43,915 nucleotides of DNA, from contig LPNY01000139.1 of assembly GCA_001655195.1 (NCBI GenBank), forward strand, positions 368,796 through 412,710, written 5' to 3'. The translations under genes were made by a program, and so were the position numbers. The notes below the pieces were generated by a model. It had not been told where the DNA came from and searched no databases. It saw only the letters and a list, made by a program, of their open reading frames with translations. This document shows positions 5,324 through 39,535 of this stretch, piece by piece. This DNA is from Arcobacter sp. EP1 (lineage in GTDB: Bacteria; Campylobacterota; Campylobacteria; Campylobacterales; Arcobacteraceae). Position 1 is the first letter of the stretch. Each line of letters starts with the position of its first letter.

Positions 5324-6154
5324 ATGAATGTAAGTAATTTATTTGATTTAAAAAATAATCTTGTAGTTATTACTGGAGGTGCTGGATTACTCGGTAAACA
5401 ACACACTGAAGCTTTAATAGAAGCAAATGCAGAAGTAGTCATACTTGATATTTGTAAGACTGCCTTGAGTGATCTTAAAGAATATTTTTTTCTAGAATAT
5501 CAAAAAGAAATATTAACATTAGAAGTTGATATAACTAAAGAGGAACAGATACTAAAAGCAAAAGAGCTGATATTTGATAAATATAATAAATATCCAAATA
5601 TTTTAATAAATAATGCAGCAATAGACCCAAAATTTGAAAAAAACAGCAAAGTAAATAAGTCAAGACTTGAAAACTTTGAATTAAACCAATGGAATTTAGA
5701 AATATCAGTAGGACTTAGTGGTGCTATGCTTTGTAGTAAAATATTTGGTATAGAGATGGCAAAGAATAGTAGGGGAGTGATATTAAATATAGCATCAGAT
5801 CTTGGTGTGATAGCACCAGATCAAAGATTATATAAACAGGATGGACTAAGTGATGAGGAACAAAATGTAAAGCCTGTAACATACTCAGTGATAAAACATG
5901 GGATTATAGGGCTCACTAAATACATAGCAACATATTGGGCAGATAAGGGAGTAAGATGCAATGCTTTTGCACCAGGTGGAGTTTTTAATAATCATCCTGA
6001 TGAGTTTTTAGAAAAAGTAACAAACTTAATACCTATGAAACGAATGGCAAATGTTGGTGAGTATAAGTCGTCGATACTTTTTTTGTGTAGTGATGCAAGT
6101 AGCTATATGAATGGTGCAACTTTAAATATGGATGGAGGCAGAAGTGTCTGGTAA
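5324..6154 (+). CDS. SDR-family oxidoreductase, PtmA-like
   Basis: This 276-residue classical short-chain dehydrogenase has an ITGGAGLLG nucleotide-binding loop at 16-24, NNAA at 96-99, Ser158 in NIASDLG and the YSVIK active site (Tyr187, Lys191). It ends with the usual MNGATLNMDGG segment. The opening resembles PtmA proteins of Campylobacter flagellin-glycosylation loci, which act in legionaminic acid precursor synthesis; that link is by resemblance only. It is the first gene of a roughly 26-kb run of same-strand genes. The reaction is presumably NAD(P)-dependent oxidation or reduction of a sugar hydroxyl or ketone. Confidence 0.85.
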   Translation: MNVSNLFDLKNNLVVITGGAGLLGKQHTEALIEANAEVVILDICKTALSDLKEYFFLEYQKEILTLEVDITKEEQILKAKELIFDKYNKYPNILINNAAIDPKFEKNSKVNKSRLENFELNQWNLEISVGLSGAMLCSKIFGIEMAKNSRGVILNIASDLGVIAPDQRLYKQDGLSDEEQNVKPVTYSVIKHGIIGLTKYIATYWADKGVRCNAFAPGGVFNNHPDEFLEKVTNLIPMKRMANVGEYKSSILFLCSDASSYMNGATLNMDGGRSVW

Positions 6155-7910
6155 AGATAGAGTTTTAGTAACTACAGCATTGAAGGAAACTTTTCCAAAG
6201 TCAACTAGCGAAAAAATACTTTTTTTAGGTGAATGGTGTAAGATTTATAGAGAAAGAGACTTTTACAACAGATTTGATCATGAAGTACTACCATATCACT
6301 GGGATGATAGAAAAAAACTTTATCAAGACTTCCAAAATATTGATAAGATTTATGAGAGAGTTTTAGCTACTTTAGCTGCAGAACTAAATAGAATTCACAA
6401 CGAAAGTTACTCTGTAAGATACTGGCGTATTATTATTGGTCCTTGGTTGAGGTATTTTATAGAGATATTTTATGATAGATATTTATCAGTTAAACAAGCT
6501 TTAGATGCAGGTTTTTGTAAAACATATTCACTAGAAATAGAAAACAGTACTCCCTTTGATATGCGTGATTTTACATTTAAATTTTGTTCTGATGAGTGGA
6601 ATCATCATATCTATAATGAAATATTATCTTATTTTGGAGCTCCTATTGAGATAGTAGGGGCTTTAGAACTTAAAAATGAAACTTATAATGATAGTAGTAA
6701 ATCACTTAAACGTATGATAGCTGATAAACTTTTTTTCGTAAATAAATTTAATACTGTACATTTTTTCTCAAGCTATTTAAGAAGAATAGAATTAAATAGT
6801 ATTCAGCTTAAGTTGAAGCAGATCCCTACACTTGGAGTGGGCTTGCAATATGTGAATACTGAATTTAAACAAGCTTATAATAAAGATATGCGAAAATCAT
6901 TGAAACTAAAAGCAGAAACAGAGCTAGAAAAAATCTTGTTTTCTGTTTTATGCAAGCAAGTTCCTATCGTTTATATGGAAGAGTACAAATTAATAAGAAA
7001 GTCTGCATTGCAAGCATATCCATCTCGTTCAAAACTAATATTGACAGCAAATAGCTATGGCTCTGATGATGTTTTTAAAATTTGGGCTGCAGAAATGGTT
7101 GAAAATGGCTCAAAGTATGTGATATCTCAACACGGAGGTCACTATGGGACTGGGTTGTTTGCCTCTCATGAAGATCATCAGTTAAAAAGTACTGATAAGT
7201 TTTTTAGCTGGGGATGGAAGTGGGATGATAGAGTCTTGCCAACTACTGCAGGAAAACTACAAAATAAGATAAACCAAGATAAAAACAAAGAAAATGGACA
7301 TATCTTACTTATCTTATCAATCTCTCCAAGGTTTAGCTATCATTTAATGAGTAGGAATATTGCAAAACAGGAACTGGACTATATTGGTATGCAGATTGAT
7401 TTTTTAAAAGCACTACCTTTTGAAATAAGAGAAAAAGTCAAAATTAGGCTTCATCCAACAGATTTCGGATGGTGTTTTAGAGAAAGGATAGAGGATGCAG
7501 GTTTTTGGGAAAATATTGATTTATCTGGTGATAGTTATGGTGAAGCTATAAGCAAATCTAAACTTGTAATAGTTGCTTGTAATTCTACAACACATTTAGA
7601 AACTTTTACTAGCGATATACCAACATTACTTTATTGGGATCCTAATCATTGGGAATTGCGAAAAGAAGCTTATCCTTACTATAAATCACTTCAACAGTCT
7701 GGTGTTTTACATTATGACCATAAGTCTTTATGTTCAGAATTATCTGAAATTTACCATTCACCTGAGAAATGGTGGAGTTCAGATGATGTTAAGGTTGCGG
7801 TAAGTAAGTTTTGTAAAGTTTTTGCTAATAAAGAAGGTGATGTTGTGGAATCGTACTGTGAAAATATTAAAAAAGTTATTAATGAGGGAACTCCTAATGT
7901 TAAAAAATAA
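6144..7910 (+). CDS. LIC12162-family putative glycosyltransferase
   Basis: The protein is 588 residues long. An ATG at 6132 exists, but GGAGG at 6134-6138 sits five bases before a GTG at 6144, so the GTG is the more convincing start. It overlaps the SDR stop by 11 bp. The opening (RVLVTTALKETFPKS, then ILFLGEWC) and the whole architecture match the LIC12162 family of putative transferases found in surface-glycan loci. A C-terminal GT-B-like half contains KIRLHP (His437-Pro438) and VIVACNSTTHLETFTSDIP, a typical donor-binding loop. The His-Pro pair recalls bacterial transferases that use CMP-sugars. Two genes downstream is a CMP-sugar synthetase. The donor is inferred. Confidence 0.8.
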   Translation: MSGKDRVLVTTALKETFPKSTSEKILFLGEWCKIYRERDFYNRFDHEVLPYHWDDRKKLYQDFQNIDKIYERVLATLAAELNRIHNESYSVRYWRIIIGPWLRYFIEIFYDRYLSVKQALDAGFCKTYSLEIENSTPFDMRDFTFKFCSDEWNHHIYNEILSYFGAPIEIVGALELKNETYNDSSKSLKRMIADKLFFVNKFNTVHFFSSYLRRIELNSIQLKLKQIPTLGVGLQYVNTEFKQAYNKDMRKSLKLKAETELEKILFSVLCKQVPIVYMEEYKLIRKSALQAYPSRSKLILTANSYGSDDVFKIWAAEMVENGSKYVISQHGGHYGTGLFASHEDHQLKSTDKFFSWGWKWDDRVLPTTAGKLQNKINQDKNKENGHILLILSISPRFSYHLMSRNIAKQELDYIGMQIDFLKALPFEIREKVKIRLHPTDFGWCFRERIEDAGFWENIDLSGDSYGEAISKSKLVIVACNSTTHLETFTSDIPTLLYWDPNHWELRKEAYPYYKSLQQSGVLHYDHKSLCSELSEIYHSPEKWWSSDDVKVAVSKFCKVFANKEGDVVESYCENIKKVINEGTPNVKK

Positions 7911-18748: not shown

Positions 18749-19673
18749 AGTTTTAATTACTGGAGGTTTTGGAAATTTAGGTAGTTGGATAACTATTTAT
18801 TTAGCTTCTATAGGATACGAGGTTTATATTTTAACGAGGGAAAAGAAGTACGTATTTGAAAATATAAAATATAATGTAATAGAATGTGATATAACAAATT
18901 TAGATGAACTAAGAAAAAACTTAGATTTTGAAATTGACTTTTGTGTACATTGTGCTAGTTATAATGAATTTTTTTTTGAGAATTATTCAAAACAAGCACT
19001 TGAGATAAATACACTTGGAACTAGAAATTTATTAGAGTCATTAAATCTAAAGAAATTAAAAAACTTTATCTATTTTAGTACTTTTCATGTATATGGTGGT
19101 TTAAGTGGTGTTATAAATGAAAGTTCACCTTTAAATCCTAAAAACGATTATGCCTCTACCCATTTGTTTGCAGAGTATTATGTGAAGCAATTTTCTTTTA
19201 CCCACAACTTAAAGTATACAATTTTCAGACTCACCAATAGTTATGGTGCACCCACTTTCGCTGATACAAGTAAGTGGTATCTAGTCTTAAATGACTTGGT
19301 CAAATCAGCGTTTAGGAATAAGGAAATCATAATAAAAAGTAATGGACAAGCAAAAAGAGATTTTATATGGATGGGAGATGTCGTAAAAGTGGTGGAAAAA
19401 GTTTTAGAAAAACCTGCTACAAATGATACATACAATTTATCTTCAAGTAATATATACAGTGTGCTTGAGCTTGCAAAAAAAGTCCAAAGAATATATAAAG
19501 ATAGATATGAACAAAATATAAATATACAAATCAATCCAAATGATATGACTATCTATGATGAATTATTAGTAGAAAATAAAAAATTAAAAAATCTAATAAA
19601 TTTTAAATTAGTAGATAGAACAGATAATGAGATAGATAAAATATTTAGTTTACTAGAAGGAAAAAGTAAATGA
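18738..19673 (+). CDS. NAD-dependent epimerase/reductase with altered active site
   Basis: This 311-residue extended SDR has the loop VLITGGFGNLGSWI at 5-18, catalytic Ser/Thr region IYFSTFHVYGG, and LTNSYGAP and RDFIWMGDVV in the C-terminal half. The Tyr/Lys motif reads YASTH: Tyr138 is kept, but the expected Lys142 is His. It lies directly after the CDP-4-keto-6-deoxyglucose genes and probably reduces the 4-keto group, or epimerises, to finish a CDP-6-deoxyhexose. A nine-T run at 18969-18977 lies within the gene. Start ATG overlaps the cupin stop by 11 bp. Confidence 0.83.
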   Translation: MRGKVLITGGFGNLGSWITIYLASIGYEVYILTREKKYVFENIKYNVIECDITNLDELRKNLDFEIDFCVHCASYNEFFFENYSKQALEINTLGTRNLLESLNLKKLKNFIYFSTFHVYGGLSGVINESSPLNPKNDYASTHLFAEYYVKQFSFTHNLKYTIFRLTNSYGAPTFADTSKWYLVLNDLVKSAFRNKEIIIKSNGQAKRDFIWMGDVVKVVEKVLEKPATNDTYNLSSSNIYSVLELAKKVQRIYKDRYEQNINIQINPNDMTIYDELLVENKKLKNLINFKLVDRTDNEIDKIFSLLEGKSK

Positions 19674-20473
19674 ACCCCTTAGTATCCATAATAATTCCAA
19701 TGTATAATGCAGAAAAATATATTAAAGAAACAATATATAGTGTCCTAAATCAAACTTATTCAAATTGGGAAATAATAATAGTAGATAATTACTCAACTGA
19801 TAACAGTAGACAGATAGTTAAAGAGTTTCTTGATAATAGAATAATGTTGATTACATTAGATTATAATAGTGGAGGGCCTGCAAGACCTAGAAATATAGGT
19901 TTAGAAAATGCAAAAGGTGAGTATATAGCCTTTTTAGATGCTGATGATGTTTGGCATGAAAGAAAATTACAAGTTCAAATTAGTGAAATTATTAATAATA
20001 ACCTAAACTTTACAAGTACTAATTCTATTAATATTGATAAAAATGGAATAGATATAAATAATCAATATAAAGTTTGGAATTTTATTAAAAAGTTCAAAAG
20101 TAAAGCAACGTTATGTGATGTTATAAAAGGAAACTTTATTGCTACATCTTCTGTTGTTGTATTAAAAGATCTTATTTCCAGCTTTGATGAAAGTAAAGAT
20201 TTTATTGCAGTAGAAGATTTATGTTTATGGATGGAGATACTAAATAATAAGAATACTAAATATAAATATATCCCGGAAAAGTTATTAAAATATAGAGTAT
20301 TATTAACAACTATATCTGAAAGAGGAAAGAACCAAAAGCAAGCAACAAGAGCAAAGTTATGCGTATTGACTTTTATATTAAAACATAATAGATTTGATTA
20401 CCTACCTTGTTTTTATTATAATATAGTATTAACTGTTTTTGTAAATATTATAAAAAAATTATTACGAAAGTAG
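19670..20473 (+). CDS. glycosyltransferase family 2
   Basis: This 267-residue GT-A enzyme starts with VSIIIPMYNAEKYIKETI, continues with SVLNQTYSNWEIIIVDNYST and has the metal-binding FLDADDVW (DxD region near residue 85). It ends with a basic, hydrophobic tail (VNIIKKLLRK) that may touch the membrane. These inverting enzymes add one sugar to a lipid-linked glycan at the cytoplasmic face. ATGA overlap with the epimerase shows coupling. Donor and acceptor are unknown. Confidence 0.9.
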   Translation: MNPLVSIIIPMYNAEKYIKETIYSVLNQTYSNWEIIIVDNYSTDNSRQIVKEFLDNRIMLITLDYNSGGPARPRNIGLENAKGEYIAFLDADDVWHERKLQVQISEIINNNLNFTSTNSINIDKNGIDINNQYKVWNFIKKFKSKATLCDVIKGNFIATSSVVVLKDLISSFDESKDFIAVEDLCLWMEILNNKNTKYKYIPEKLLKYRVLLTTISERGKNQKQATRAKLCVLTFILKHNRFDYLPCFYYNIVLTVFVNIIKKLLRK

Positions 20474-20500: not shown

Positions 20501-21589
20501 GTGAAATATAAATTATTAAATAGTAATAAGAGTCTATTTCTTTTGATAAGTTTTATTTTAGTGGTAAAAATGGTTGTTTTATTTTACATGTTTACATCAG
20601 GAAATATTTTTGGTGGAGGACTAAGTGATGCTAATAGCTATCATATTGCAGCAATAGGAATTCAAGAATTTCCAAATGCATGGACTTCTATTTTAAGTTT
20701 TTTAAATGATTTAGGTTTATACAATAGATTAGGAATGAGTATATGTTTATCTTTATTAGCAGTTTTTGTTATACCTTTTATTGTAGGTAATTTAGCTTTA
20801 GTTAACAATTATTTACAAAAACAAAAAGTGTTATTATATCTATTTTTTATTGTTTCTATCTATCCCAATATATTTTTACTATCTACAGATGTTTTTAAAG
20901 ATGTCTTTATGTTGTTTATGTTTTTACTTGGTTTGTATGTGTTTAAAAGTTTATCAGTCGTTTCAAGTATTTCGCTAAAAATATTTTTATTTATATTAGG
21001 TTTGATTTTTATATATATACTTTATAACTTTAGGCCATATTTAGGCTTTTCTTATGGAGTAGCTCTCATGTTAGGATATTTTTATAGTTTTAAAAAATAT
21101 CCTTTAATATTAAGTATAGTTTTTTTATTGCTTTTTTTACAAGTATTATATATGTTTGGTTTTTTAGATTCACTTGTTAATTATAGAGAGGGATTTCATA
21201 CTGTTTTGCATAGGAATCAAGGAAGTGGAATAGGGATATCTTTTGATAGTTCAGTTTTATTTATTCCAAAATTTATTCAAAGTTTTATATATCAAATGTT
21301 TGGGTTTTATTTCCCCAATTTCTCTAGTACCGTAGTTTTTGTATTTGAATCAGTGCCTTTTATGATTGCTTTGTATTATTTAATTAGAAATAGAGAATAC
21401 TGTAATAAATTTGTATACTTTTTAATAGTGTTTTTTGTAGTTTATGCTACTATATGGGTTATTGCTAATGATAACTTAGGAACAGCCTCTAGAATTAGAA
21501 TATTTAATTATATAGTTATTTATATTGCATGCTTTGTTGTTTATCAACATAAACAGCTTTTTAAAAATTTAGATATAAATAAAGTATAA
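20501..21589 (+). CDS. polytopic membrane protein, candidate glycan polymerase (Wzy-like)
   Basis: This 362-residue protein has about ten predicted membrane spans. It starts at GTG with AAAGGAG at 20484-20490; a nearby ATG (20494) is out of frame and closes quickly. Visible landmarks are LSDANSYH after the first span, STDVFKDVFM in the middle, YNFRPYLGF, GSGIGISF in a loop, and ASRIRIFNY near the end. The same landmarks recur in the protein at 24409, so the two belong to one family. Position among glycosyltransferases and predicted topology suggest polymerisation or membrane-bound glycosyl transfer, as for Wzy proteins, which are too divergent to confirm by eye. Confidence 0.65.
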   Translation: MKYKLLNSNKSLFLLISFILVVKMVVLFYMFTSGNIFGGGLSDANSYHIAAIGIQEFPNAWTSILSFLNDLGLYNRLGMSICLSLLAVFVIPFIVGNLALVNNYLQKQKVLLYLFFIVSIYPNIFLLSTDVFKDVFMLFMFLLGLYVFKSLSVVSSISLKIFLFILGLIFIYILYNFRPYLGFSYGVALMLGYFYSFKKYPLILSIVFLLLFLQVLYMFGFLDSLVNYREGFHTVLHRNQGSGIGISFDSSVLFIPKFIQSFIYQMFGFYFPNFSSTVVFVFESVPFMIALYYLIRNREYCNKFVYFLIVFFVVYATIWVIANDNLGTASRIRIFNYIVIYIACFVVYQHKQLFKNLDINKV

Positions 21590-21613
21590 AGGTTATTATT
21601 GTGGAGAAGTATA

Positions 21614-22438
21614 TTGACTAAAGTAGTAATAATAGGTAAAAATAGTAATCTTTCTAAAAAACTATATAGTAGGATTAAAAACTCTACATTAGTTTCGTCA
21701 AGAGATATTTTATCTTCTGATGACATCTTTGGAAACTATGAAGGTACTGAGATAAGTATTATTTTTAATAATTTTCAGCCTGCAATAAAATTGAATAATA
21801 TAGAGAATACGACAGATTATTTAATGAATTCTATTTTTTCAACTTCTAAAATTTTAGACTTTTGCAAAAAAAAATCAATAAAAATCAATAAACTTATTTA
21901 CACAAGTAGTAGTTCTGTGTATGGAAACAATATATTATGTAGTGAAAGTGATGAATTAAAACCTCTAAATCTTCATGCTTCTCTAAAAGTAGCAAATGAA
22001 AAGCTTATAGAGAAATTTTGTTTAGAAAATAGTATCGATTATACTATTTCAAGAATATTTAATATGTATGGAGGAGAAGATAAGTTTTCAGTGATTAACA
22101 AAATCATTAAAGCTTATAAAAATCAAGAAGAGTTAACTATTGTGAATAATGGTAATGCAATAAGAGATTTTATTCATATTGATGACGTCGTAGAAATATA
22201 TTTAAAGATATTAAATCAAAAGAATCTTAAAGTTTTAAATATTGGTACGGGGAATGGTACTTCTATTAAAAGTATTATTGATTTTTTTGAAAAACACAAT
22301 AAAATAGTAGAAATAAATAATATATTTGCAGATGAACTTAAAACTTCAACTGCAGATATTAGATTACTTTATGAAGTTTTTAATAAAGAAAAGTTTATGA
22401 GAGTAGAAGAGTATTTAAAAAAAGAACTTCATATATGA
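21614..22438 (+). CDS. degenerate NAD-dependent epimerase-like protein
   Basis: The frame opens at a TTG at 21599, but GGAGAAG (21603-21609) is correctly placed for a TTG at 21614, giving 274 residues. It resembles an extended SDR: YTSSSSVYGN, SRIFNMYGG, RDFIHIDDVVEIYLKI and NIGTGNGTSIKSI. However, the N-terminal loop reads VVIIGKNSNLSKKL instead of GxxGxxG, and the Tyr/Lys motif is HASLK, with His121 replacing Tyr (Lys125 kept). It may have altered chemistry or a binding role. Nine A at 21866-21874 lie inside the gene. ATGA overlap with the next gene. Confidence 0.75.
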   Translation: MTKVVIIGKNSNLSKKLYSRIKNSTLVSSRDILSSDDIFGNYEGTEISIIFNNFQPAIKLNNIENTTDYLMNSIFSTSKILDFCKKKSIKINKLIYTSSSSVYGNNILCSESDELKPLNLHASLKVANEKLIEKFCLENSIDYTISRIFNMYGGEDKFSVINKIIKAYKNQEELTIVNNGNAIRDFIHIDDVVEIYLKILNQKNLKVLNIGTGNGTSIKSIIDFFEKHNKIVEINNIFADELKTSTADIRLLYEVFNKEKFMRVEEYLKKELHI

Positions 22439-23583
22439 AAAAAATTATAATGATTACAACTATACCTATGAGTTTTGCTACATTAGTAAAAGGACAAGCA
22501 AAATATTTATCTCAATATTTTGAAATTAAAATGGTTACGTCACCTTCTGAAAAAAATGAAGATATTTCATCGTATGAAGGTGTTAAAATTCACTCAGTCA
22601 ATATGACTCGTCAAATAACACCTATAGAAGATTTAAAATCTTTGATAAAACTTTTTCAATATATTAAAAAAGAAAAACCAGATGCAGTTTATACATTTAC
22701 CCCCAAAGCAGGCCTACTAGGTATGATGGCATCTTTTTTGGCAAGAGTACCAGTACGAATTCATAATATTGTTGGTATGCCACTTATGGAAGTAAAAGGA
22801 ATTAAGAGAAAACTGTTAGAACTTATTGAAAAGTTAACATATTTTTTTGCTACGCATCTTTTTTGTAATAGTTTTGGACTAAAAGACTATTTGTATAAAA
22901 ACCTGACTAAAAAAGAGGTTCGTGTAATTGCTAATGGTTCGATTAATGGGGTTGATACAGATTATTTTAAAAATGACAAAAGTATCTGTGAACAAGATGA
23001 AATAAGACAAGAATATGGAATTAGCCCTAGTGACTTTGTTATAACTTTTGTAGGAAGAATCGTAAAAGACAAAGGGATAAATGAACTCGTCGAAGTGTTT
23101 TTGGAACTATCGAAAAAACATGATAATCTTAAATTATTATTGGTGGGGGATTATGAAGAACATTTGAATTCTATTGATAAAAAAAACAAAGACTTAATTG
23201 ATAGCTCCCCAAGTATAATAGCAGTGGGTTTTAAAAAAGAAATACGAAATTTTTTAGCAATTACAGATTTGTTTGCATTGCCCTCTTATAGAGAGGGATT
23301 ACCTAATTCACTTATAGAAGCAGGTAGTTTTGGTATACCACTTTTAGCTACAAATATTAACGGATGCAATGAGATAATTATTCAAAATGAAACAGGCATA
23401 CTTGTAAATAAAAAAGATAATATTAGTCTTAAGAATGGTTTAGAACGAATGATAGTTGATACAGAACAGTACAATTATATAAAGAAAAATATTCGAACCC
23501 AAATACAAGAAAGATATAGTCAAGATTATTTTTGGCAAGAATTAAGGAATGAATTTGAGTCTATTTTGGAGGAAAAGAGATGA
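22435..23583 (+). CDS. glycosyltransferase family 4
   Basis: This 382-residue GT-B enzyme of the GT4 type has an N-terminal MITTIPMSFATLVKGQAKYL opening, VYTFTPKAGLLGMMAS in the acceptor domain, ITFVGRIVKDKGINELVEVF at the start of the donor domain, and the EX7E motif in REGLPNSLIEAGSFGIPLLA. Enzymes of this kind, close to bacillosamine-type initiating transferases, often add the second sugar. The pglC gene lies further downstream here, so a similar task is possible. It uses an activated hexose or HexNAc at the cytoplasmic membrane face. The precise donor is unknown. Confidence 0.9.
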   Translation: MKKIIMITTIPMSFATLVKGQAKYLSQYFEIKMVTSPSEKNEDISSYEGVKIHSVNMTRQITPIEDLKSLIKLFQYIKKEKPDAVYTFTPKAGLLGMMASFLARVPVRIHNIVGMPLMEVKGIKRKLLELIEKLTYFFATHLFCNSFGLKDYLYKNLTKKEVRVIANGSINGVDTDYFKNDKSICEQDEIRQEYGISPSDFVITFVGRIVKDKGINELVEVFLELSKKHDNLKLLLVGDYEEHLNSIDKKNKDLIDSSPSIIAVGFKKEIRNFLAITDLFALPSYREGLPNSLIEAGSFGIPLLATNINGCNEIIIQNETGILVNKKDNISLKNGLERMIVDTEQYNYIKKNIRTQIQERYSQDYFWQELRNEFESILEEKR

Positions 23584-24419
23584 AAATATTTTTTGTTGTT
23601 CCTACATTAAACAAAAGACCAAATGAACTAAAAAGACTTATCAATAGCATATCTTCTCTAAAAGGTCTTATTGAAAAAAAGATTTTGATTATAAATCAAG
23701 GCGAAGAAATTTTTTTAGATAATAATATTCAAGATTATATAATAGAAATCAAAATAGATAGAAAAGGTACATCAAATGCAAAAAATGTAGGTATTGAATA
23801 TATCTTAGATAAATCAAATGATGATGACCTTATATGTTTTCCAGATGATGATTGTTGGTATCCCGAAGATAGTATAGAGAAGATTATTAGCGCTTTTAAC
23901 AATGAAAATGATGGTATCATAGGGAGAGCATTTGATCCAAATATAGGGAGAGACTTTGGTTTTACACAATTCAAAAACTCTATAATAGTAAATAAAAACA
24001 ATGCTCATAAATTTTTTATGATATCAATGTTTTTTAAAGTAAAAATATTTAAAAATACAACAGTACGATTTGATCCCGAACTAGGAGTAGGTGCAAAATA
24101 TGGCTGTGGAGAAGAGACAGATTTGCTATTTGATATATTAAAAAATCACTATAAAATATTGTATGACAATAATTTTAAAGTATATCATTTGAATTATGAG
24201 ATGCAAACAGAACAATTATTGAGTTACTCATATGGACAAGGGGCATTACTCAAAAAAATAGTATTCAAATACAAATCTATCGGAGTATTTTTTACAATTA
24301 TATTACGTCCATTATTGGGTGGGGTTTATTTTGCATTGTTATTGAAATTTCAAAACAGTAAAAGGTATTTTTTGAGGTTGCATAGATTATATAAAGGTTT
24401 TTTTGATTATGAAATATAA
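23580..24419 (+). CDS. glycosyltransferase family 2-like
   Basis: This 279-residue GT-A protein has IFFVVPTLNKRPNELKRL as opening strand and FPDDDCWYPEDS as the acidic metal-binding motif (near 82-93). GCGEETDLLFDIL occupies the position of the ED catalytic-base motif. The spacing between the first strand and the DxD-type motif fits GT2 enzymes, though the opening is shorter than in the gene at 19670. The C-terminus has a hydrophobic stretch (IGVFFTIILRPLLGGVYFAL), a possible membrane contact. ATGA overlaps the preceding stop. It presumably adds one sugar to the repeat unit. Confidence 0.85.
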   Translation: MKIFFVVPTLNKRPNELKRLINSISSLKGLIEKKILIINQGEEIFLDNNIQDYIIEIKIDRKGTSNAKNVGIEYILDKSNDDDLICFPDDDCWYPEDSIEKIISAFNNENDGIIGRAFDPNIGRDFGFTQFKNSIIVNKNNAHKFFMISMFFKVKIFKNTTVRFDPELGVGAKYGCGEETDLLFDILKNHYKILYDNNFKVYHLNYEMQTEQLLSYSYGQGALLKKIVFKYKSIGVFFTIILRPLLGGVYFALLLKFQNSKRYFLRLHRLYKGFFDYEI

Positions 24420-25479
24420 CACCTACATTCCTGCCTTTTTATTGTTTTTAATTGGAATGACTATTTTATTTATTTTTAATTACTTCCCAAATATAGATCC
24501 TCATTTTGGTAGTGATGGTGTGTATTATTTAAGTGAAGGTAAAAAATTATTAAAAGAAAATGTAAATAGTCATGCAATAGGTTGGATATATATTAATAGT
24601 TTTTTCATATGGTTATTTGGAGATATGGCACTTTATTTCTTAAGGGCTTTTAATTTAATATTATATTTTTTACTCGTTTTATTTGTTATAAAAGTTATTA
24701 TGAATGATACAAGAAAAAATTTAGACTATTATTATGTGTACATAATTAGTTTTATTCCAAGTATATTTTATTTTTCAATTATGAATTTAAAAGAGACTAT
24801 TCTTATTTTTGTTATAGTGCTAACTATTTATATAGCATCTTCAAGTATTAATATCTTTTCTAAAATATTTTTATTAGTGCCATTATTATATGTTGGTACA
24901 TTAATGAGAGTTTATTTAGTTATTTTAATTGCAGTAATGTTTTATATTTATTTTTTATTAAAAAAGTATAATAAATTTAAAGAAAAAGATAATTTTTTTA
25001 TTTTTTTTATCTTGTATCCAATTGCATTATTTTTGTTTAGTAACTCTTATCTTCAGCCAGTATTTGATTATCTTAGAGGATCATTTCTAGAAATCCAGTT
25101 ACACTCTTCCTCTGGTCTAGGAGCATATATTTACGCACCGCATTCAACTATGGATTTATTGATAACAATTCCTTATAGGATTATTTTTTATATTATTACC
25201 CCTATGCCTTGGGAAACAACGAACCTATTATATTTTGTAGGAGTTATAGAGAATTATATTTTATTTATACCTTTATTAATATATTCATTAATTAATTTTA
25301 AAATAGTTAAGAGTAATAATTTTCTACTAATGTTAATGTCATTTGTGTTTACAAATATCCTCTTTTATTCTTCGATTATGAGTAATGCTGGGATAGTTGT
25401 TCGTATGCAAAGCTCTGCATTGTTCTGTTTGGTAATAATATTTATATACATAAGAATGATTAAAAAAGTAGAAAAGTAA
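24409..25479 (+). CDS. polytopic membrane protein, second candidate glycan polymerase
   Basis: The protein is 356 residues from ATG 24409 (a TTG at 24403 in frame is an alternative; AAAGG lies at 24393-24397). It has roughly nine or ten hydrophobic spans. It shares with the protein at 20501 the landmarks GSDGVYYL after span one, SIMNLKETILIF in the middle (Lys-acid pair), LMRVYLVIL, a SSGLGAYIY loop and VVRMQSSALF near the end, in the same order and similar spacing. It starts inside the previous glycosyltransferase gene. A Wzy-like polymerase or lipid-linked glycosyltransferase role is inferred from topology and position. Confidence 0.65.
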   Translation: MKYNTYIPAFLLFLIGMTILFIFNYFPNIDPHFGSDGVYYLSEGKKLLKENVNSHAIGWIYINSFFIWLFGDMALYFLRAFNLILYFLLVLFVIKVIMNDTRKNLDYYYVYIISFIPSIFYFSIMNLKETILIFVIVLTIYIASSSINIFSKIFLLVPLLYVGTLMRVYLVILIAVMFYIYFLLKKYNKFKEKDNFFIFFILYPIALFLFSNSYLQPVFDYLRGSFLEIQLHSSSGLGAYIYAPHSTMDLLITIPYRIIFYIITPMPWETTNLLYFVGVIENYILFIPLLIYSLINFKIVKSNNFLLMLMSFVFTNILFYSSIMSNAGIVVRMQSSALFCLVIIFIYIRMIKKVEK

Positions 25480-25483
25480 GATT

Positions 25484-26644
25484 ATGAAAAAAATATTGAT
25501 AACAAACAGCACATGTTTGCAAGATAATATTGGAGGAGCGAGTAGATCTATTCATGAAATAGCACTTGAACTCTCGCAAGTTTATGACATTACGTTGATA
25601 GTTCCTAATAGAAATAAAAAAGATGAGAGTGAAAATATCAATAAAAATTATAAGATTATCAGGTATCCTTATAATTGTAAAAACAAGGTTACAAAACTAT
25701 TGTCATCGATACAATTTTTTATGCAACATAAAAGCTTGATAGAAGATACTTATGACATAGTATGGGGTCAATCTCCAGAGCCTTTTTTATATCTGATGGT
25801 CCTCACAAAGTTAAAAAAAATTCGAAATATAATTTACACTTTTCATGGCCCTTGGTATGAAGAATACAAGTATGCAAGCGGTAAAGAAAGTATTTTATTG
25901 AAGTATATTATAAAGTTTATAGAAAAGGTAATACTTCATTATGCTAATACTATCCATTTTCAGTCTAATTATATTTTTCAAAAAATCAATAAAGAACATA
26001 AAATAAAAAAAGAGACAAAGATTCTTAATATTTTAATCAATCCAGAACAATATAAAAGCAAAAAATATTTATTAACTAATAATTTAATTAAAATTGATAA
26101 ATTGAATTTATTTTTAATTAGAAGATTGACTCCAAGAACTGGAGTTTTAAATTTTGTGAAAAATATTTATCTTTTAAAGAAAGAGTTAAAAGATGAAATA
26201 AATATTTTAATAGCGGGTCAAGGTGAAGAGTTTAAGTTGATAGAAAAATTTATTAAGCATAACATGATGGATAACTACGTGAGACTATTAGGAGGGGTTG
26301 AGCAAGATATGGCTGATGATTTAATACAAAAAAGTGATTATGTAGTGATGCCATCAATTGGTGCTGAAGGCTTTGGGGTAACAGTTTTGGAGTCACTTTA
26401 TCAACAAACTGAAGTGTTATATGCTAATAATGGCGGGATGAAGGAATTTCTCGAAAAAAATTATTCGGATAATATTTTTAACCCACTAGAACTTAAAAGT
26501 TTAGAAAAACTATTAGAAAATAAAATAAAATTAAATAAAAGGAAGAACTTTCAAAAACAGTTTAGGAAAGTTGATTCAAATTTAGATTTTAAAAGTAATT
26601 TAAAAAATCTTATAGGTGTTGATTATGAAAAAAAAGATTATTAA
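25484..26644 (+). CDS. glycosyltransferase family 4
   Basis: This 386-residue GT-B protein has ITNSTCLQDNIGGASRSIHE at the N-terminus (the GGA loop binds substrate), IYTFHGPWYEEYK in the acceptor domain, and the donor-domain EX7E motif in AEGFGVTVLESLYQQTE followed by NNGGMKEFL. It starts four bases after the membrane protein gene. Retaining GT4 enzymes act in the cytoplasm on lipid-linked oligosaccharides. The sugar transferred cannot be inferred. Confidence 0.9.
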   Translation: MKKILITNSTCLQDNIGGASRSIHEIALELSQVYDITLIVPNRNKKDESENINKNYKIIRYPYNCKNKVTKLLSSIQFFMQHKSLIEDTYDIVWGQSPEPFLYLMVLTKLKKIRNIIYTFHGPWYEEYKYASGKESILLKYIIKFIEKVILHYANTIHFQSNYIFQKINKEHKIKKETKILNILINPEQYKSKKYLLTNNLIKIDKLNLFLIRRLTPRTGVLNFVKNIYLLKKELKDEINILIAGQGEEFKLIEKFIKHNMMDNYVRLLGGVEQDMADDLIQKSDYVVMPSIGAEGFGVTVLESLYQQTEVLYANNGGMKEFLEKNYSDNIFNPLELKSLEKLLENKIKLNKRKNFQKQFRKVDSNLDFKSNLKNLIGVDYEKKDY

Positions 26645-27758
26645 TATAACAATTGCACCTGATACAGTCGATATCTTTTTGACTGATATAATTGACTACT
26701 TAAAATTACATGATTATGAAACTTATAGCATGGCAAATGAAGAGGAAAGTTTGCATGAAAAACATGTTAAGAAAAGAGAAAAAAATTTTTACACGCATGG
26801 TGTTTCAAGAAAATTGGTTTTGATTAGAGAACTAAAAGCACTTTTTAAAGTATATAGGTTTTTTAAAAAAAATAAATTTGATCTTGTGCATTTACATACC
26901 CCAAAGATTTTATTATTATTTTCAATAATTATTAAATTAACCAATAATGGCAAAATAGTTGCCACGTATCATGGTTCACTTGCAAAAGAAAACAAACCTA
27001 TTCGTAATGCTATTTTTTATTTTATCGACTATTTAAACTCTTTTTTTATTGATTATATATTTACTGTTAATCATAATGATTTAAAAAGATTTTGGAAATA
27101 TGGATTGTATAATGAAAACAATTCATCGGTAATAAGTTTATCTGGTATTGGGGTGAAAAGTAGACTTTTTAAAACAATCTCCTTAGAAGAGAAGCAAAAA
27201 ATAAAAGAAGAACTTGGTATTCCATTAAATGTAAAAGTTATCGGAAATGTAAGTCGGTTTACTAAAGATAAAGGTATAGATACAATTGAAAAAATAATAA
27301 AAGAGCTTAAGTTCAAGTATAATTATAACTTCGTTTTCTTGCATATTGGTGCAATTGAAGATAAAAAATATTTTGAAAGTTTAAATATTGATAATATGAT
27401 TTCTTTAGGATATAAAAATCAAAAAGAGTTACATTTGTATTATAATATAATGGATTTATTTCTTTTCCCTTCATTAAGGGAAGGTTTTGGAATTAGTGTT
27501 GCAGAGGCAAATCTATGTGGAGTTCCAGCATTGGTATCTGATATAAAAGGCTTAAATGAAGTAGTAGTAAACAATAAAAATGGTTTTAAAGTAACAAGAA
27601 CTGAAGATTATGTAGAGTATTTGAGTCATTACTTATCTAATGAAAATGAATTGAATTTTTTAAAAAAAAGTACACTAAAGTATGCGATAGAAAGATTTGA
27701 TCAAAATGAGGCATCCGTAAATACTTTTAATGTTTACGAAAACTTAATAAATAATTGA
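26625..27758 (+). CDS. glycosyltransferase family 4
   Basis: The frame is open from a GTG at 26616, but the ATG at 26625 with ATAGGTG upstream gives a typical 377-residue GT4 start (MKKKIINITIAPDTVDIFLT). It has VHLHTPKILLLFSI and ATYHGSL in the N-domain, KVIGNVSRFTKDKGIDTIEK at the donor domain and the EX7E motif in REGFGISVAEANLCGVPALV. It overlaps the previous GT4 gene by 20 bp, the largest overlap among the transferases. It probably adds a further sugar to the lipid-linked repeat. Confidence 0.9.
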   Translation: MKKKIINITIAPDTVDIFLTDIIDYLKLHDYETYSMANEEESLHEKHVKKREKNFYTHGVSRKLVLIRELKALFKVYRFFKKNKFDLVHLHTPKILLLFSIIIKLTNNGKIVATYHGSLAKENKPIRNAIFYFIDYLNSFFIDYIFTVNHNDLKRFWKYGLYNENNSSVISLSGIGVKSRLFKTISLEEKQKIKEELGIPLNVKVIGNVSRFTKDKGIDTIEKIIKELKFKYNYNFVFLHIGAIEDKKYFESLNIDNMISLGYKNQKELHLYYNIMDLFLFPSLREGFGISVAEANLCGVPALVSDIKGLNEVVVNNKNGFKVTRTEDYVEYLSHYLSNENELNFLKKSTLKYAIERFDQNEASVNTFNVYENLINN

Positions 27759-27773
27759 AGAAAGTGAGAACAT

Positions 27774-28366
27774 ATGTTTAAAACATTAATGGACAAAATT
27801 TTAGCGTTTTTTTTAATAATTCTTTTCTCTCCTATTTACATAGTAGTGAGTTTCCTTTTATATTGGAAGATTGGGAGTCCTATAATTTTTAGACAAAAAA
27901 GACCAGGATATAAAGAAAAGATATTTTCTATCTATAAGTTTCGTACTATGAGCAATGAAACTGATGAAAATGGAAATTTACTTCCTGATGAAGAAAGAAT
28001 ATTTGGAGTAGGAAAGTTTGTACGAAGTATTAGTCTAGATGAGCTTCCTCAGCTTTTTAATGTACTTAAAGGAGAGATGAGTTTTGTAGGTCCACGCCCG
28101 CTTCTTATTGAGTATCTTCCATTGTATAATGAAAAACAAAAAAAAAGACATAATGTAAAGCCAGGTATTACTGGATGGGCTCAAGTAAATGGGCGAAACG
28201 CTATCAGCTGGGAAGAAAAATTTGAATTTGATGTTTGGTATGTCGAAAAACAGTCATTTTTACTAGATATGAAGATTTTATGGATGACATTTCTAAAGGT
28301 AGTTCAAAGAAGTGATATTAATTCAAAGACTTCTGTAAGTATGGAAAAGTTTAGAGGTAATCAAGA

Positions 28367-28370
<4 letters not shown>
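27774..28370 (+). CDS. pglC: initiating phosphoglycosyl transferase, PglC-like
   Basis: This 198-residue monotopic phosphoglycosyl transferase has one N-terminal re-entrant hydrophobic helix (about 8-30), [12 protein letters not shown], the catalytic Asp89-Glu90 pair in [28 protein letters not shown], and [19 protein letters not shown]. Length and sequence pattern match Campylobacter PglC, which transfers phospho-di-N-acetylbacillosamine from its UDP donor to undecaprenyl phosphate. The next three genes make that donor. A ribosome site (AAGAAAGTGAG) precedes the ATG. It should therefore define the first sugar of the glycan. Confidence 0.9.
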
Positions 28371-31800
<3,430 letters not shown>

Positions 31801-31872: not shown

Positions 31873-32271
31873 ATGAAAAATGCATTCTCGTTACTTGAAT
31901 TGATTTTTGCAATTGTGGTTATTGGGATTTTAGCAAGTATCGGTATCCCAAAACTTATGGATACTCGTAATGATGCTTTGGTTTCTACTGTGAAACAAGA
32001 TCTTGTATCCTTATCAAGTTCAATTCAAACTTACTACATGTTAAATGGCAAAATTGATAATATATCCGATGCAATTATTTTAAACTCAACCCTTTGGGAG
32101 GTAGATGGAATCAAGGCTATATTTAAAGATAATGATAAAGAGTGTATAATTGCTCAAATAATTGGAAGCGATAATAAACAATTAAGTATTGAAATTGAGG
32201 ATGATAGTTCGAGTGTTTGCAAAAAGCTTGTTTTATCAGGAGTCAAAAATATAAATTATGATTTATACTAA
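31873..32271 (+). CDS. type IV pilin-like (pseudopilin) protein
   Basis: This 132-residue protein has a short leader and class III signal. The sequence MKNA is followed by FSLLELIFAIVVIGILAS, so prepilin peptidase would cut between Ala4 and Phe5, leaving Glu at +5 and one hydrophobic helix. The rest is a small globular domain with two cysteines (near 95 and 119) that could form the C-terminal disulphide. Such proteins assemble into type IV pili, type II secretion or uptake pseudopili. It stands alone here without pilus machinery, between glycan genes and pgi, with its own promoter candidates. RBS TAAGG precedes the ATG. Confidence 0.85.
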   Translation: MKNAFSLLELIFAIVVIGILASIGIPKLMDTRNDALVSTVKQDLVSLSSSIQTYYMLNGKIDNISDAIILNSTLWEVDGIKAIFKDNDKECIIAQIIGSDNKQLSIEIEDDSSSVCKKLVLSGVKNINYDLY

Positions 32272-35054: not shown

Positions 35055-36487
35055 TGAAAGAAATATTAGATAATAGTACACAACCAAATATTTTAGTTAT
35101 AGGTGACTTGATGGTCGATCATTATTTATGGGGGTCGTGTGACAGAATTTCTCCGGAAGCTCCAGTTCCAATTATTGATATTAAAAGTGAATCATCTGTT
35201 TTAGGTGGTGCAGGTAATGTTATCAATAATCTTTTATCGTTAGGTTCACAAGTGGGTGTATTATCTGTTGTTGGTGATGATGAGGTTGCTGAAGAGGTAC
35301 GTTATTTGATTGATGCAACAGAAGCTAAATCATACTTGATTTTACAAAAAGGAAGAAGTACTTCTAAAAAATCAAGAATCATGGCATCAAAATCTCAAAT
35401 TGTACGATATGACCATGAAAGCAGAAATAATGTCTCTTTTGATAGTGCAGATAAACTCTATGCTAAATTGCAACAAATTATAAATGCTTATGACATTATT
35501 CTTTTATCAGATTATGGTAAAGGTGTTTTAACAAAACATGTTACAAAACAAGTGATTTCATTAGCTAACAAGTTTGGAAAAAAAGTAATTGTGGATCCAA
35601 AAGGAACAGATTACACAAAATATAAAGGTGCTTATTTTTTAACACCAAATAAAAAAGAAGCGGAATTAGCAACGGGGATTAAAATTGAGTCAGATGATAC
35701 CTTACGATCTGCATTAGATACCTTACAAAAAACTGCAAAGTTAGATTTATCATTGATTACATTAAGTGAAGATGGAATTTCCGTCTTAAAAGATAATGAA
35801 GTAACAATCAAACCTACAGTTGCTAGAGAAGTTTATGATGTAACAGGTGCTGGAGATACAGTATTAGCTTCGCTTGGATACGCACTTTCAAAAGATGTGG
35901 ATATTTATACTGCATTAGAGTTTGCAAACCTTGCAGCAGGTGTTGTTGTTGGGAAATTAGGATCTGCAACAGTAACGTTAGACGAAATTGAAGAGTACAA
36001 AGCAAGCCTACATAAAAGTTCAATTGAACTTCATATTAAAACACGTAAAGAGATCAAAAAGATTTCAAAACGTTTAAAAGAACAAAATAAAAAAGTAGTC
36101 TTTACAAATGGCTGTTTTGATATTTTACATAAAGGGCACGTGGCTTATTTAAATACGGCTAAATCTTATGGGGATGTTTTAATTGTTGGATTAAATTCTG
36201 ATGATTCTGTTAAACGACTAAAAGGTGAAGATAGACCCGTAAATGGTGAAGAAGATAGAGCCTATATTTTATCTGCACTAGAGAGTGTTGATTATGTAGT
36301 TGTTTTTGAAGAAGATACGCCTTACGAATTAATTTCAAAAGTTAAACCTGACATTCTAGTTAAAGGCGCAGACTATGAAGGTAAAGAAGTCGTAGGTTCA
36401 GATATTGCAAAAGAGACAAAATTAGTTAAATTTATTGATGGTAAAAGTACGTCACGAACAATTGATAAAATTTTAGGAAACAGTTAA
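35054..36487 (+). CDS. hldE: bifunctional heptose 7-phosphate kinase/heptose 1-phosphate adenylyltransferase
   Basis: The 477 residues form two domains. The N-terminal PfkB-type kinase (about 1-315) has [21 protein letters not shown] and the catalytic DVTGAGDT. The C-terminal nucleotidyltransferase (about 340-477) starts [18 protein letters not shown] with the HxGH motif. It phosphorylates heptose-7-phosphate at C1 and later adenylylates heptose-1-phosphate. The fused arrangement and length equal E. coli HldE. It overlaps hldD and gmhA by one base each, so the heptose genes are tightly coupled. Confidence 0.96.
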
Positions 36488-37056
36488 TGAAAACTACAAT
36501 AGAGAGTGAGTTTGCCTCACATTTACAAACCATTCAAAAAGTGATTGAAACAATGGGAGAACCTTTAGAGGAAGCCTCTTCTATTGTAATTGATGCATTA
36601 AAAGATGGCAAAAAAGTAATTCTTTTTGGAAACGGTGGAAGTGCAGCAGATGCACAACATATTGCGGCTGAATTAACAGGACGATATAAAACGGAAAGAA
36701 GAGGTTTACCAGGTCTTGCCCTAACAACGGATACTTCAGCTTTAACAGCTATTGGAAACGATTATGGTTATGACCGTGTTTTTGATAGACAAGTAGAATC
36801 GTTAGCACAAAGTGGGGATGTTTTAATAGGGATTAGTACTAGCGGAAATTCTAAAAATGTTATTAACGCTTTTCATTTAGGTCAAGAAATAGGGTGTAAA
36901 ATTATTGGTTTTACTGGGCGTGATGGTGGAGCTATGGATGCTTATTGTGATGTTAATCTTATTGTTCCATCGGATAATACACCAAGAATTCAAGAGATGC
37001 ATATCTTATTTGGACATACGATTTGTCAATTAATTGATAATGCATTTGAAGAATAG
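36487..37056 (+). CDS. gmhA: sedoheptulose 7-phosphate isomerase
   Basis: This 189-residue SIS-domain enzyme has [19 protein letters not shown] with the phosphate-binding loop, [31 protein letters not shown], and a late [10 protein letters not shown] containing the conserved His region. It converts sedoheptulose-7-phosphate to D-glycero-D-manno-heptose-7-phosphate, the entry step of ADP-heptose synthesis. With gmhB, hldD and hldE the pathway is complete within 3.6 kb. A 24-bp gap to apt follows. Confidence 0.95.
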
Positions 37057-38845: not shown

Positions 38846-39535
38846 ATGAGAAAAAAACTTGAAGATCATAATGGAAAAATCCTTTTTGTAATTGTTGCAA
38901 CCTTTCTTGGATTTTTAGCGTACAATTTATACTATGCACCTGTTGAAGGATTAGAGAATAAATTTATTTATTTGTTACGAACCTATGGGTATATTATCCT
39001 TTTTGCCTGGAGTATATTAGAAGGCGAATTAGGTCTTATCATGGCAGGACTTATGTCCCATGAAGGTTCTATGAATCTTTACATGGCAATTTTTATTGCA
39101 GGTCTTGGTGGTTTTGCAGGTGATCAAATCTATTTTTATATCGGTCGATTTAATAAATCCTATGTTCATAGAAACTTTAAAGGCCAACGACGAAAATTTG
39201 CATTGGCTCATTTACTGTTGATTAAATATGGTTGGCCAATTATTTTTGTTCAACGATATATGTATGGAATGCGAACAATTATTCCTATTTCTATTGGATT
39301 AACGCGATACAACGCAAAAACATTTGCTTTTATTAACTTAATCTCTGCTTGGTGTTGGGCAGCAATTACAATTGTACCAACATGGTATTTCGGTGAACAA
39401 ATTCTAGATCTATTAAAGTGGGCAAAAGCACACTGGTATTTTGCAGCACCATTTGCACTGATCATTGGTGGAAGTATAATTTACTATTTTAATAAAATGT
39501 CAAAAAAACAGGAGAAACAATCAGATGAAGATTAA
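38846..39535 (+). CDS. DedA-family membrane protein
   Basis: This 229-residue membrane protein has a first helix at about 12-30, another at 47-75 containing WSILEGELGLIMAGLMS, then GGFAGDQIYFYIGRF, FVQRYMYGMRTIIPISIGLTRY (the conserved arginine-rich re-entrant segment), and two C-terminal helices. DedA proteins are thought to flip or move phospholipids or undecaprenyl phosphate and support envelope stability; the specific activity here is not known. It follows trpB by 8 bp and overlaps pepA by 11 bp. Confidence 0.88.
   Translation: MRKKLEDHNGKILFVIVATFLGFLAYNLYYAPVEGLENKFIYLLRTYGYIILFAWSILEGELGLIMAGLMSHEGSMNLYMAIFIAGLGGFAGDQIYFYIGRFNKSYVHRNFKGQRRKFALAHLLLIKYGWPIIFVQRYMYGMRTIIPISIGLTRYNAKTFAFINLISAWCWAAITIVPTWYFGEQILDLLKWAKAHWYFAAPFALIIGGSIIYYFNKMSKKQEKQSDED

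Follow-up and report, generated by a model that had tools for sequence, protein, structure and literature searches.

Proteins A and B, encoded in one gene cluster of Arcobacter sp. EP1, appear to be two anciently diverged members of an uncatalogued family of inner-membrane proteins with about 10 spans, whose conserved residues would face the periplasm. Most likely, and here our confidence is moderate, they are Wzy-type (GT-C-like) transferases acting on undecaprenyl-PP-linked oligosaccharides. The window, the whole stretch of DNA analysed, comprises 43,915 nucleotides, and the features discussed are listed in Table 1. What the data show is the sequence relation of B to its relatives C, a weaker one of A to B and C, the gene setting, and the lack of matches to the tested Wzx, Wzz and PglB models; topology detail, fold, catalysis, polymer identity and the division of labour between A and B are inferred.

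Table 1. Features of the gene cluster around A and B (window coordinates).
Feature	Coordinates	Strand	Remarks
GT2 glycosyltransferase adjoining A	19670..20473	+	PF00535, 133 bits
Protein A	20501..21589	+	362 aa, about 9-10 membrane spans, GTG start; predicted Wzy-like / GT-C-like
A D43-x3-Y47	20627..20641	+	first periplasmic loop; predicted helix begins here (helix 42-53, low-confidence model)
A K133-D134	20897..20902	+	central K-(D/E) landmark
A R178-P-Y180	21032..21040	+	R-(P/V)-Y landmark
A S242-G-I-G245	21224..21235	+	S-G-I-G loop, read from translation
A N325-L-G-T-A-S-R331	21473..21493	+	counterpart in C1 and C2 N-L-G-x-A-V-R; contains S330-R331 landmark
GT4 glycosyltransferase between A and B	22435..23583	+	PF00534, 116 bits
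GT2-like glycosyltransferase immediately 5' of B	23580..24419	+	PF00535, 45 bits
Protein B	24409..25479	+	356 aa, about 10 membrane spans; probably same family as A
B D36-x3-Y40	24514..24528	+	first periplasmic loop; invariant across B and C1-C3
B K128-E129	24790..24795	+	K-D in C1-C3
B R167-V-Y169	24907..24915	+	R-S/T-W in C1-C3
B S235-G-L-G238	25111..25122	+	S-G-L-G, long periplasmic loop
B P-M-P-W	25201..25212	+	identical in C1-C3; A without P-M-P-W
B N326-A-G-I-V-V-R332	25384..25404	+	contains V331-R332 landmark
Two GT4 glycosyltransferases 3' of B	25484..27758	+	25484-26644 and 26616-27758; PF00534
PglC-like initiating sugar-phosphate transferase	27774..28370	+	NCBIfam EPS_sugtrans, 242 bits (cut-off 296)
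PglD-, PglE- and PglF-like genes	28367..31800	+	amino-deoxy sugar synthesis

The ORF list and the translations placed both genes where the initial annotation had them, at 20501 and 24409. For B, the ORF tool also permitted a TTG start at 24403 besides the ATG at 24409, and the 5' end of the gene overlaps the 3' end of the preceding GT2 gene. The five landmarks named in that annotation were found in order and at near-equal spacing in both proteins, the first reading S42-D43-A-N-S-Y47 in A and S35-D36-G-V-Y-Y40 in B. The matching topology that it proposed was likewise recovered, hydropathy giving 9 spans for A and 10 for B in the same order. All landmarks lie on the predicted periplasmic side, and on the same hydropathy argument the loop charges fit an N-in orientation.

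B has firm relatives, here called C, at three loci (C1-C3) in other Campylobacterales (B versus C1 in blastp: E 4.6e-12 over 322 aa). The direct similarity between A and B is weak: BLASTP aligned 212 aa at 24% identity (28.1 bits; E 3e-4 for the pair by itself), and when A was searched against a panel of 122 multi-span proteins its best non-self match was B, although at no more than 27.7 bits and E 0.05. Against a profile of B and C, A scored 32.5 over 208 collinear columns, a value reached by none of 400 hydropathy-class-preserving shuffles of A (maximum 28.2). A spacing rule (D-x3-Y, K-D/E, R-x-Y/W, N-x-G/S-x3-R), the motifs of which were picked with A already in view, matched B and all three C relatives; A matched at a slack of at least 12 and failed at 5 and 11. 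Elsewhere the rule found none of 117 other multi-span proteins, none of 20,000 shuffles and none of 1478 other ORFs, with one match among the latter at a slack of 30-40. At the sequence level, these data support the assignment of A and B to one family with a similarity beyond chance.

A different reading takes A and B for multi-span proteins with no relationship to each other that carry the landmarks by chance, B being Wzy-like and A something else in the same pathway. This would agree with the plain searches, in which A was linked to neither B nor C: A was absent from the best 14 of 122 proteins in hmmsearch with the C or the B+C profile, and neither B nor C was among the best 10 matches of phmmer with A. 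The E value of A and B in the panel and the missing P-M-P-W motif of A point the same way. Nevertheless, we consider it improbable in view of the shuffle test, the spacing rule, which picks A and no other multi-span protein, and the agreement in span order. When hhalign was run with B+C as query, A ranked fourth of 54 other clusters, below PglB and two unrelated-looking proteins. A joins B and C at the edge of detection, by one shuffle test and the motif rule, and this assignment is the weaker one. The earlier description of A and B as divergent copies of a single family is supported, with the membership of A less certain than that of B. A recent duplication is ruled out by the identity of 22-24% and by the closer relationship of B to C than to A.

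C1 had been found by searching 298 genomes of the order with an A+B profile, a match for which B alone could account and which therefore does not count in favour of A. The C1 and C3 clusters hold Wza/Wzc-like genes and glycosyltransferases, C1 and C3 being the sole multi-span transferase candidates within the stretches examined, and no Wzx was seen in the C loci within sequence up to the contig ends. Using tblastn, no relatives of A or B were detected in plasmids, and none of B in phages or genome contigs; pattern searches and tblastn revealed none of either protein in viral contigs. In 100 related genomes and 397 genomes of the phylum, tblastn returned short or chance fragments only. Relatives of C1 were likewise not found in plasmids, phages or viral contigs, nor those of C3 in plasmids. 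The A3 profile yielded no additional full-length member across the 397 genomes, and its weak matches L036, L109 and L050 are not supported as family members.

Pfam and NCBIfam, searched with A and B at E values up to 10, produced a single match (DUF2142 for B, E 1.8), and C1-C3 were likewise not placed by family models. Neither A nor B matched PF04932 (Wzy_C, WaaL ligase), PF14897 or the Wzx models PF01943 and PF13440; the last result, together with 9-10 spans and a length of about 360 aa, rules out that either is a Wzx flippase. PDB sequence searches with A, B and the C proteins gave no match placing the family, and neither did hhalign comparison with E. coli WzyE, WbbH and WcaD. A PglB-like (GT-C) assignment was considered and dropped, as the hhalign alignments of B+C to PglB and two large membrane proteins look generic. 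AlphaFold (AF2) models of A and B were poor (pLDDT 47 and 46, pTM 0.32 and 0.40, respectively), and Foldseek found no match at E<=0.001 for these low-confidence models; matches at E 1.3 and worse were disregarded. The label Wzy-like is favoured by gene context, namely the flanking glycosyltransferases and the Wza/Wzc-like genes beside the relatives of B, but no family model matches.

A and B sit amid five glycosyltransferases and the initiating transferase, and apart from a sensor-kinase-like ORF the only cluster proteins of at least 250 aa with at least 6 spans are A, B and an ABC exporter. The setting is that of a Wzy polymerase, with initiating transferase, glycosyltransferases and flippase, the flippase being of the ABC type. 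This divergent PglK-type exporter, which the initial annotation did not cover, is encoded 29 kb upstream of A in the same cluster. Of the NCBIfam models it matches PglK best (376.6 bits, below the 1000-bit equivalog cut-off), PglK also ranks top among the listed full-length PDB matches of the same size, and its identity to each of four PglK-type proteins of Pgl loci is only 33-37%, against 57-67% among those four. Unusually, no Wzx (PF01943 / PF13440, E<=0.001), no Wzz and no PglB (STT3) was found in the whole genome. One gene, in another cluster (G000:C68), encodes a WaaL candidate (PF04932, 69.1 bits). Wzz is present in most Wzy systems, and the lack of a match in this genome counts against a Wzy-type function of A and B.

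In place of the usual flippase, the cluster seems to rely on one of the ABC type to move its sugar repeats. The unit would be begun by the PglC-like enzyme and lengthened by the five glycosyltransferases among which A and B lie, and the PglK-type exporter would flip the undecaprenyl-linked unit; in the periplasm, A and/or B may then link units, or attach blocks to each other, before WaaL would transfer the product onto lipid A-core. According to PMC2841628, O16 antigen is restored in an E. coli wzx mutant by Wzk of H. pylori, which is homologous to PglK, so that a Wzy pathway can be supplied by a flippase of the ABC type. More speculatively, and with little confidence, we propose a hybrid O-antigen pathway: the PglK/Wzk-type exporter would take the place of Wzx and supply two Wzy-like enzymes from a new GT-C family, with no Wzz involved, and these would build two different linkages between units, or a block polymer, on a single lipid-linked unit before its transfer by WaaL.

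Alternatively, either A or B alone might be the polymerase, the other being a GT-C glycosyltransferase that adds a periplasmic branch or cap sugar from an Und-P-sugar donor. GT-C transferases carry an Asp or Glu in the first loop, and the conserved Asp right after span one, before a low-confidence predicted helix, recalls this residue. Since P-M-P-W is common to B and C and missing from A, A and B may also differ in their job. We regard this division as doubtful: no gene resembling an Und-P-sugar synthase was seen in the locus, neither GT2 protein having one as its best NCBIfam match, and the C relatives of B occupy the expected position of a polymerase. It is still less likely that only one of A and B is active and the other a leftover or an alternative polymerase, comparable to serotype-converting second wzy genes. 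Such genes override or idle, as described in PMC9241936 and PMC13228068; however, those known are phage-borne and outside the locus, whereas A and B are both intact ORFs within the cluster. A. baumannii with a phage-borne second wzy likewise has two Wzy candidates in one genome, the extra wzy lying in a prophage outside the locus, while A and B belong to one gene run.

The preferred reading, two Wzy-type transferases of one family, agrees in several respects with what is known of such polymerases (CAZy GT122-GT135, clans GT-C1/2/3; PMC10920833), which are multi-span inner-membrane proteins of polysaccharide clusters with very low sequence conservation and conserved Arg/Lys, Asp and Tyr on the outer face. 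Unlike these, A and B match neither PF04932 nor PF14897, nor any of the three E. coli polymerases in hhalign, and the A3 alignment contains no invariant His, which clan GT-C3 possesses (PMC10920833). With the Wzk/WaaL O-antigen pathway of H. pylori, as outlined in PMC2841628, EP1 shares a PglK-type ABC flippase, a WaaL candidate and the lack of a detected Wzx (two models) or Wzz; in H. pylori, however, no Wzy has been found and the chain is built in the cytoplasm, whereas the EP1 cluster has two Wzy-like proteins. Campylobacter-type N-glycosylation (Pgl) loci resemble the cluster in their PglC/D/E/F-like genes and PglK-type exporter, but the EP1 genome has no detected PglB (STT3) and its exporter is divergent from the PglK of Pgl loci.

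Polymerases are the least conserved step in surface-glycan synthesis, and Meitil et al. could assign only 150 of 363 seeds to families (PMC10920833). A and B, along with C1-C3, would seed one more family. If true, the occurrence in nature of an ABC-type flippase together with Wzy-like enzymes would show that mixing between the Wzx/Wzy and Wzk pathways of the textbooks is possible.

ORF calling and the translations of A and B confirmed both genes where the initial annotation had placed them, together with the five shared landmarks it had listed: S-D-(A/G)-x-x-Y, a K-(D/E) pair, R-(P/V)-Y, S-G-(I/L)-G and an (S/V)-R segment near the end. By hydropathy, A has nine and B ten membrane spans, in identical order. 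Following the positive-inside rule, we read D-x3-Y, K-D/E, R-x-Y, S-G-x-G and the final N-x-G-x3-R as all periplasmic in the predicted topology. AlphaFold models built from four to five sequences were of low confidence (mean pLDDT 47.1 for A and 46.1 for B); their helices corresponded closely in order and chain position, and in both D-x3-Y opened a short helix after span one. Foldseek searches with these models returned nothing at E ≤ 0.001.

Positions of A, B and other genes of the sugar cluster (L005 and L006, further stretches of the same cluster; G000, genome of the window)
Feature	Position	Strand	Length	Remarks
A	window 20501-21589	+	362 aa	GTG start
B	window 24409-25479	+	356 aa	ATG start, overlapping 3' end of preceding GT2 gene
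ABC exporter	G000:C38:360268-362001 = L005:1473-3206	same as A	577 aa	29 kb upstream of A
Type IV pilin-like ORF	window 31873-32271		132 aa	small; by inspection; flanked by PglF-like and phosphoglucose-isomerase-like genes
VTT/DedA-domain protein	window 38846-39535			PF09335; family linked to undecaprenyl-phosphate recycling
NeuB-like synthase fused with sugar-isomerase-like domain	L005:5487-7397		636 aa	by inspection
GmhA-like sedoheptulose-7-phosphate isomerase, first of two	window 36487-37056			by inspection
GmhA-like sedoheptulose-7-phosphate isomerase, second of two	L005:8251-8829			by inspection
ORF	window 6132-7910		592 aa	no Pfam match
ORF	L005:258-1430		390 aa	no Pfam match
Integrase-like ORF	L006:7539-8624			by inspection; downstream of window

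Compared directly, A and B resemble each other weakly (24% identity over 212 aa, 28.1 bits, E 3e-4 for the one pair). When 298 genomes of the order were searched with an A+B profile, one of the 297 other genomes gave a full-length match; this protein, C1 (435 aa, E 5.5e-12), was the sole full-length relative beyond the own genome. Searching GTDB contigs with C1 yielded three loci, C1 itself and two relatives at 80% and 47% identity. In a blastp panel of 122 distinct multi-span proteins, B matched C1 (E 4.6e-12 over 322 aa), C2 (E 1e-10) and C3 (E 2.7e-6), and by these matches B and the C proteins firmly form one sequence family.

The position of A was less evident. Its top non-self match in the same panel was B (27.7 bits, E 0.05), and C3 and C2 were interspersed among unrelated proteins; A was absent from the best 14 hits of hmmsearch with the C or B+C profile, and phmmer with A placed neither B nor C in its best 10. 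Using hhalign, B+C ranked top among the other clusters from A (score 28.7 over 211 columns; next 21.5), and A came fourth from B+C (24.7), after PglB (31.4) and two other proteins. Direct alignment of A with the B+C profile scored 32.5 over 208 collinear columns, in register at K-D, R, N-L-G-x-A-x-R and the remainder, above all 400 hydropathy-class-preserving shuffles of A (mean 17.0, sd 3.0, maximum 28.2). A motif-and-spacing rule derived from B and C fitted A at a slack of at least 12 (not at 5 and 11) and none of 117 other multi-span proteins, 1478 other ORFs or 20,000 shuffles; at a slack of 30-40 one other ORF also fitted. The motifs were picked with A already seen, and the rule is therefore supportive, not independent. 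Taken as sequences, A very probably belongs to one family with B and C, and the proposal of two divergent members of a single family is supported. A recent duplication was rejected; A and B are separate branches of an unnamed family that is rare among genomes of the order.

Neither A nor B had a match above noise in Pfam, NCBIfam models or PDB sequences, and scans of C1-C3 and PHROGs added nothing to place the family. In hhalign comparisons, no convincing match emerged to single E. coli sequences (WzyE, WbbH, WcaD, WzxE, RfbX, WzxC, YegH, part of ArnT) or to the Wzx, WaaL and PglB clusters from Campylobacterota. Gene context speaks for a putative Wzy-like family. The glycosyltransferases that surround A and B comprise three of GT4 and two of GT2 type, and after these come a PglC-like initiating transferase and genes resembling PglD, PglE and PglF; C1 and C3 are accompanied by glycosyltransferases and, by inspection, Wza/Wzc-like genes. 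Wzx was unseen at C1 because the contig ends inside the gene cluster. The C-type relatives at L025, L024 and L022 belong to gene clusters rich in glycosyltransferases in Campylobacterales MAGs; those at L022 and L025 also contain asparagine-synthase-like, GT4 and Wza/Wzc-like genes (by inspection). The Asp just past span one in A and B is reminiscent of those GT-C enzymes that carry a catalytic acid in the first loop. The predicted outer-face position of the conserved residues in A and B resembles that reported for all polymerase families by Meitil et al. (PMC10920833).

ORFs of at least 250 aa with at least six spans in the cluster (L004, L005, window, L006) were A, B, an ABC exporter and a sensor-kinase-like ORF. 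The top NCBIfam model for the exporter was PglK (376.6 bits, below the cut-off of 1000). Its identity to the remaining four panel members of its cluster is 33-37%, while those four share 57-67% mutual identity and all lie in PglB-containing loci; we therefore judge the exporter a divergent PglK/Wzk-type protein by sequence. At E 0.001, the own genome (estimated as 100% complete) had no match to Wzx (PF01943 or PF13440), Wzz (PF02706) or STT3/PglB (PF02516), for which 13, 14, 8 and 4 of 14 control genomes matched, respectively. Its single PF04932 gene (69.1 bits) lies within a cluster read as LPS-core genes. In same-family genomes, the six loci that surround this PglC-like gene (L033, L034, L038, L041, L043, L049) all have a Wzx-cluster member, confirmed by Pfam in 4/4 tested; the window's genome, without recognisable Wzx, is thus unlike its relatives.

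Flipping by an ABC exporter is plausible because H. pylori Wzk substitutes for Wzx in the O16 pathway of E. coli (PMC2841628). The same paper reports none of Wzy, Wzx and Wzz found in H. pylori, whereas here a PglK/Wzk-type exporter occurs with two putative Wzy-like proteins. A limited literature search revealed no natural ABC-flippase-plus-Wzy system. In reported strains with two Wzy enzymes the second is usually prophage-borne (PMC9241936, PMC13228068); in contrast, inspection of the window ORFs showed no phage genes near A or B. That both are polymerases is somewhat less likely than not. One polymerase with a branch transferase as its partner appears unlikely, and that one of the two is idle more improbable still. 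In the proposed route, repeat units would be assembled on undecaprenyl-PP, the ABC exporter would flip the undecaprenyl-PP-linked units, and A and/or B may join them ahead of transfer by WaaL.
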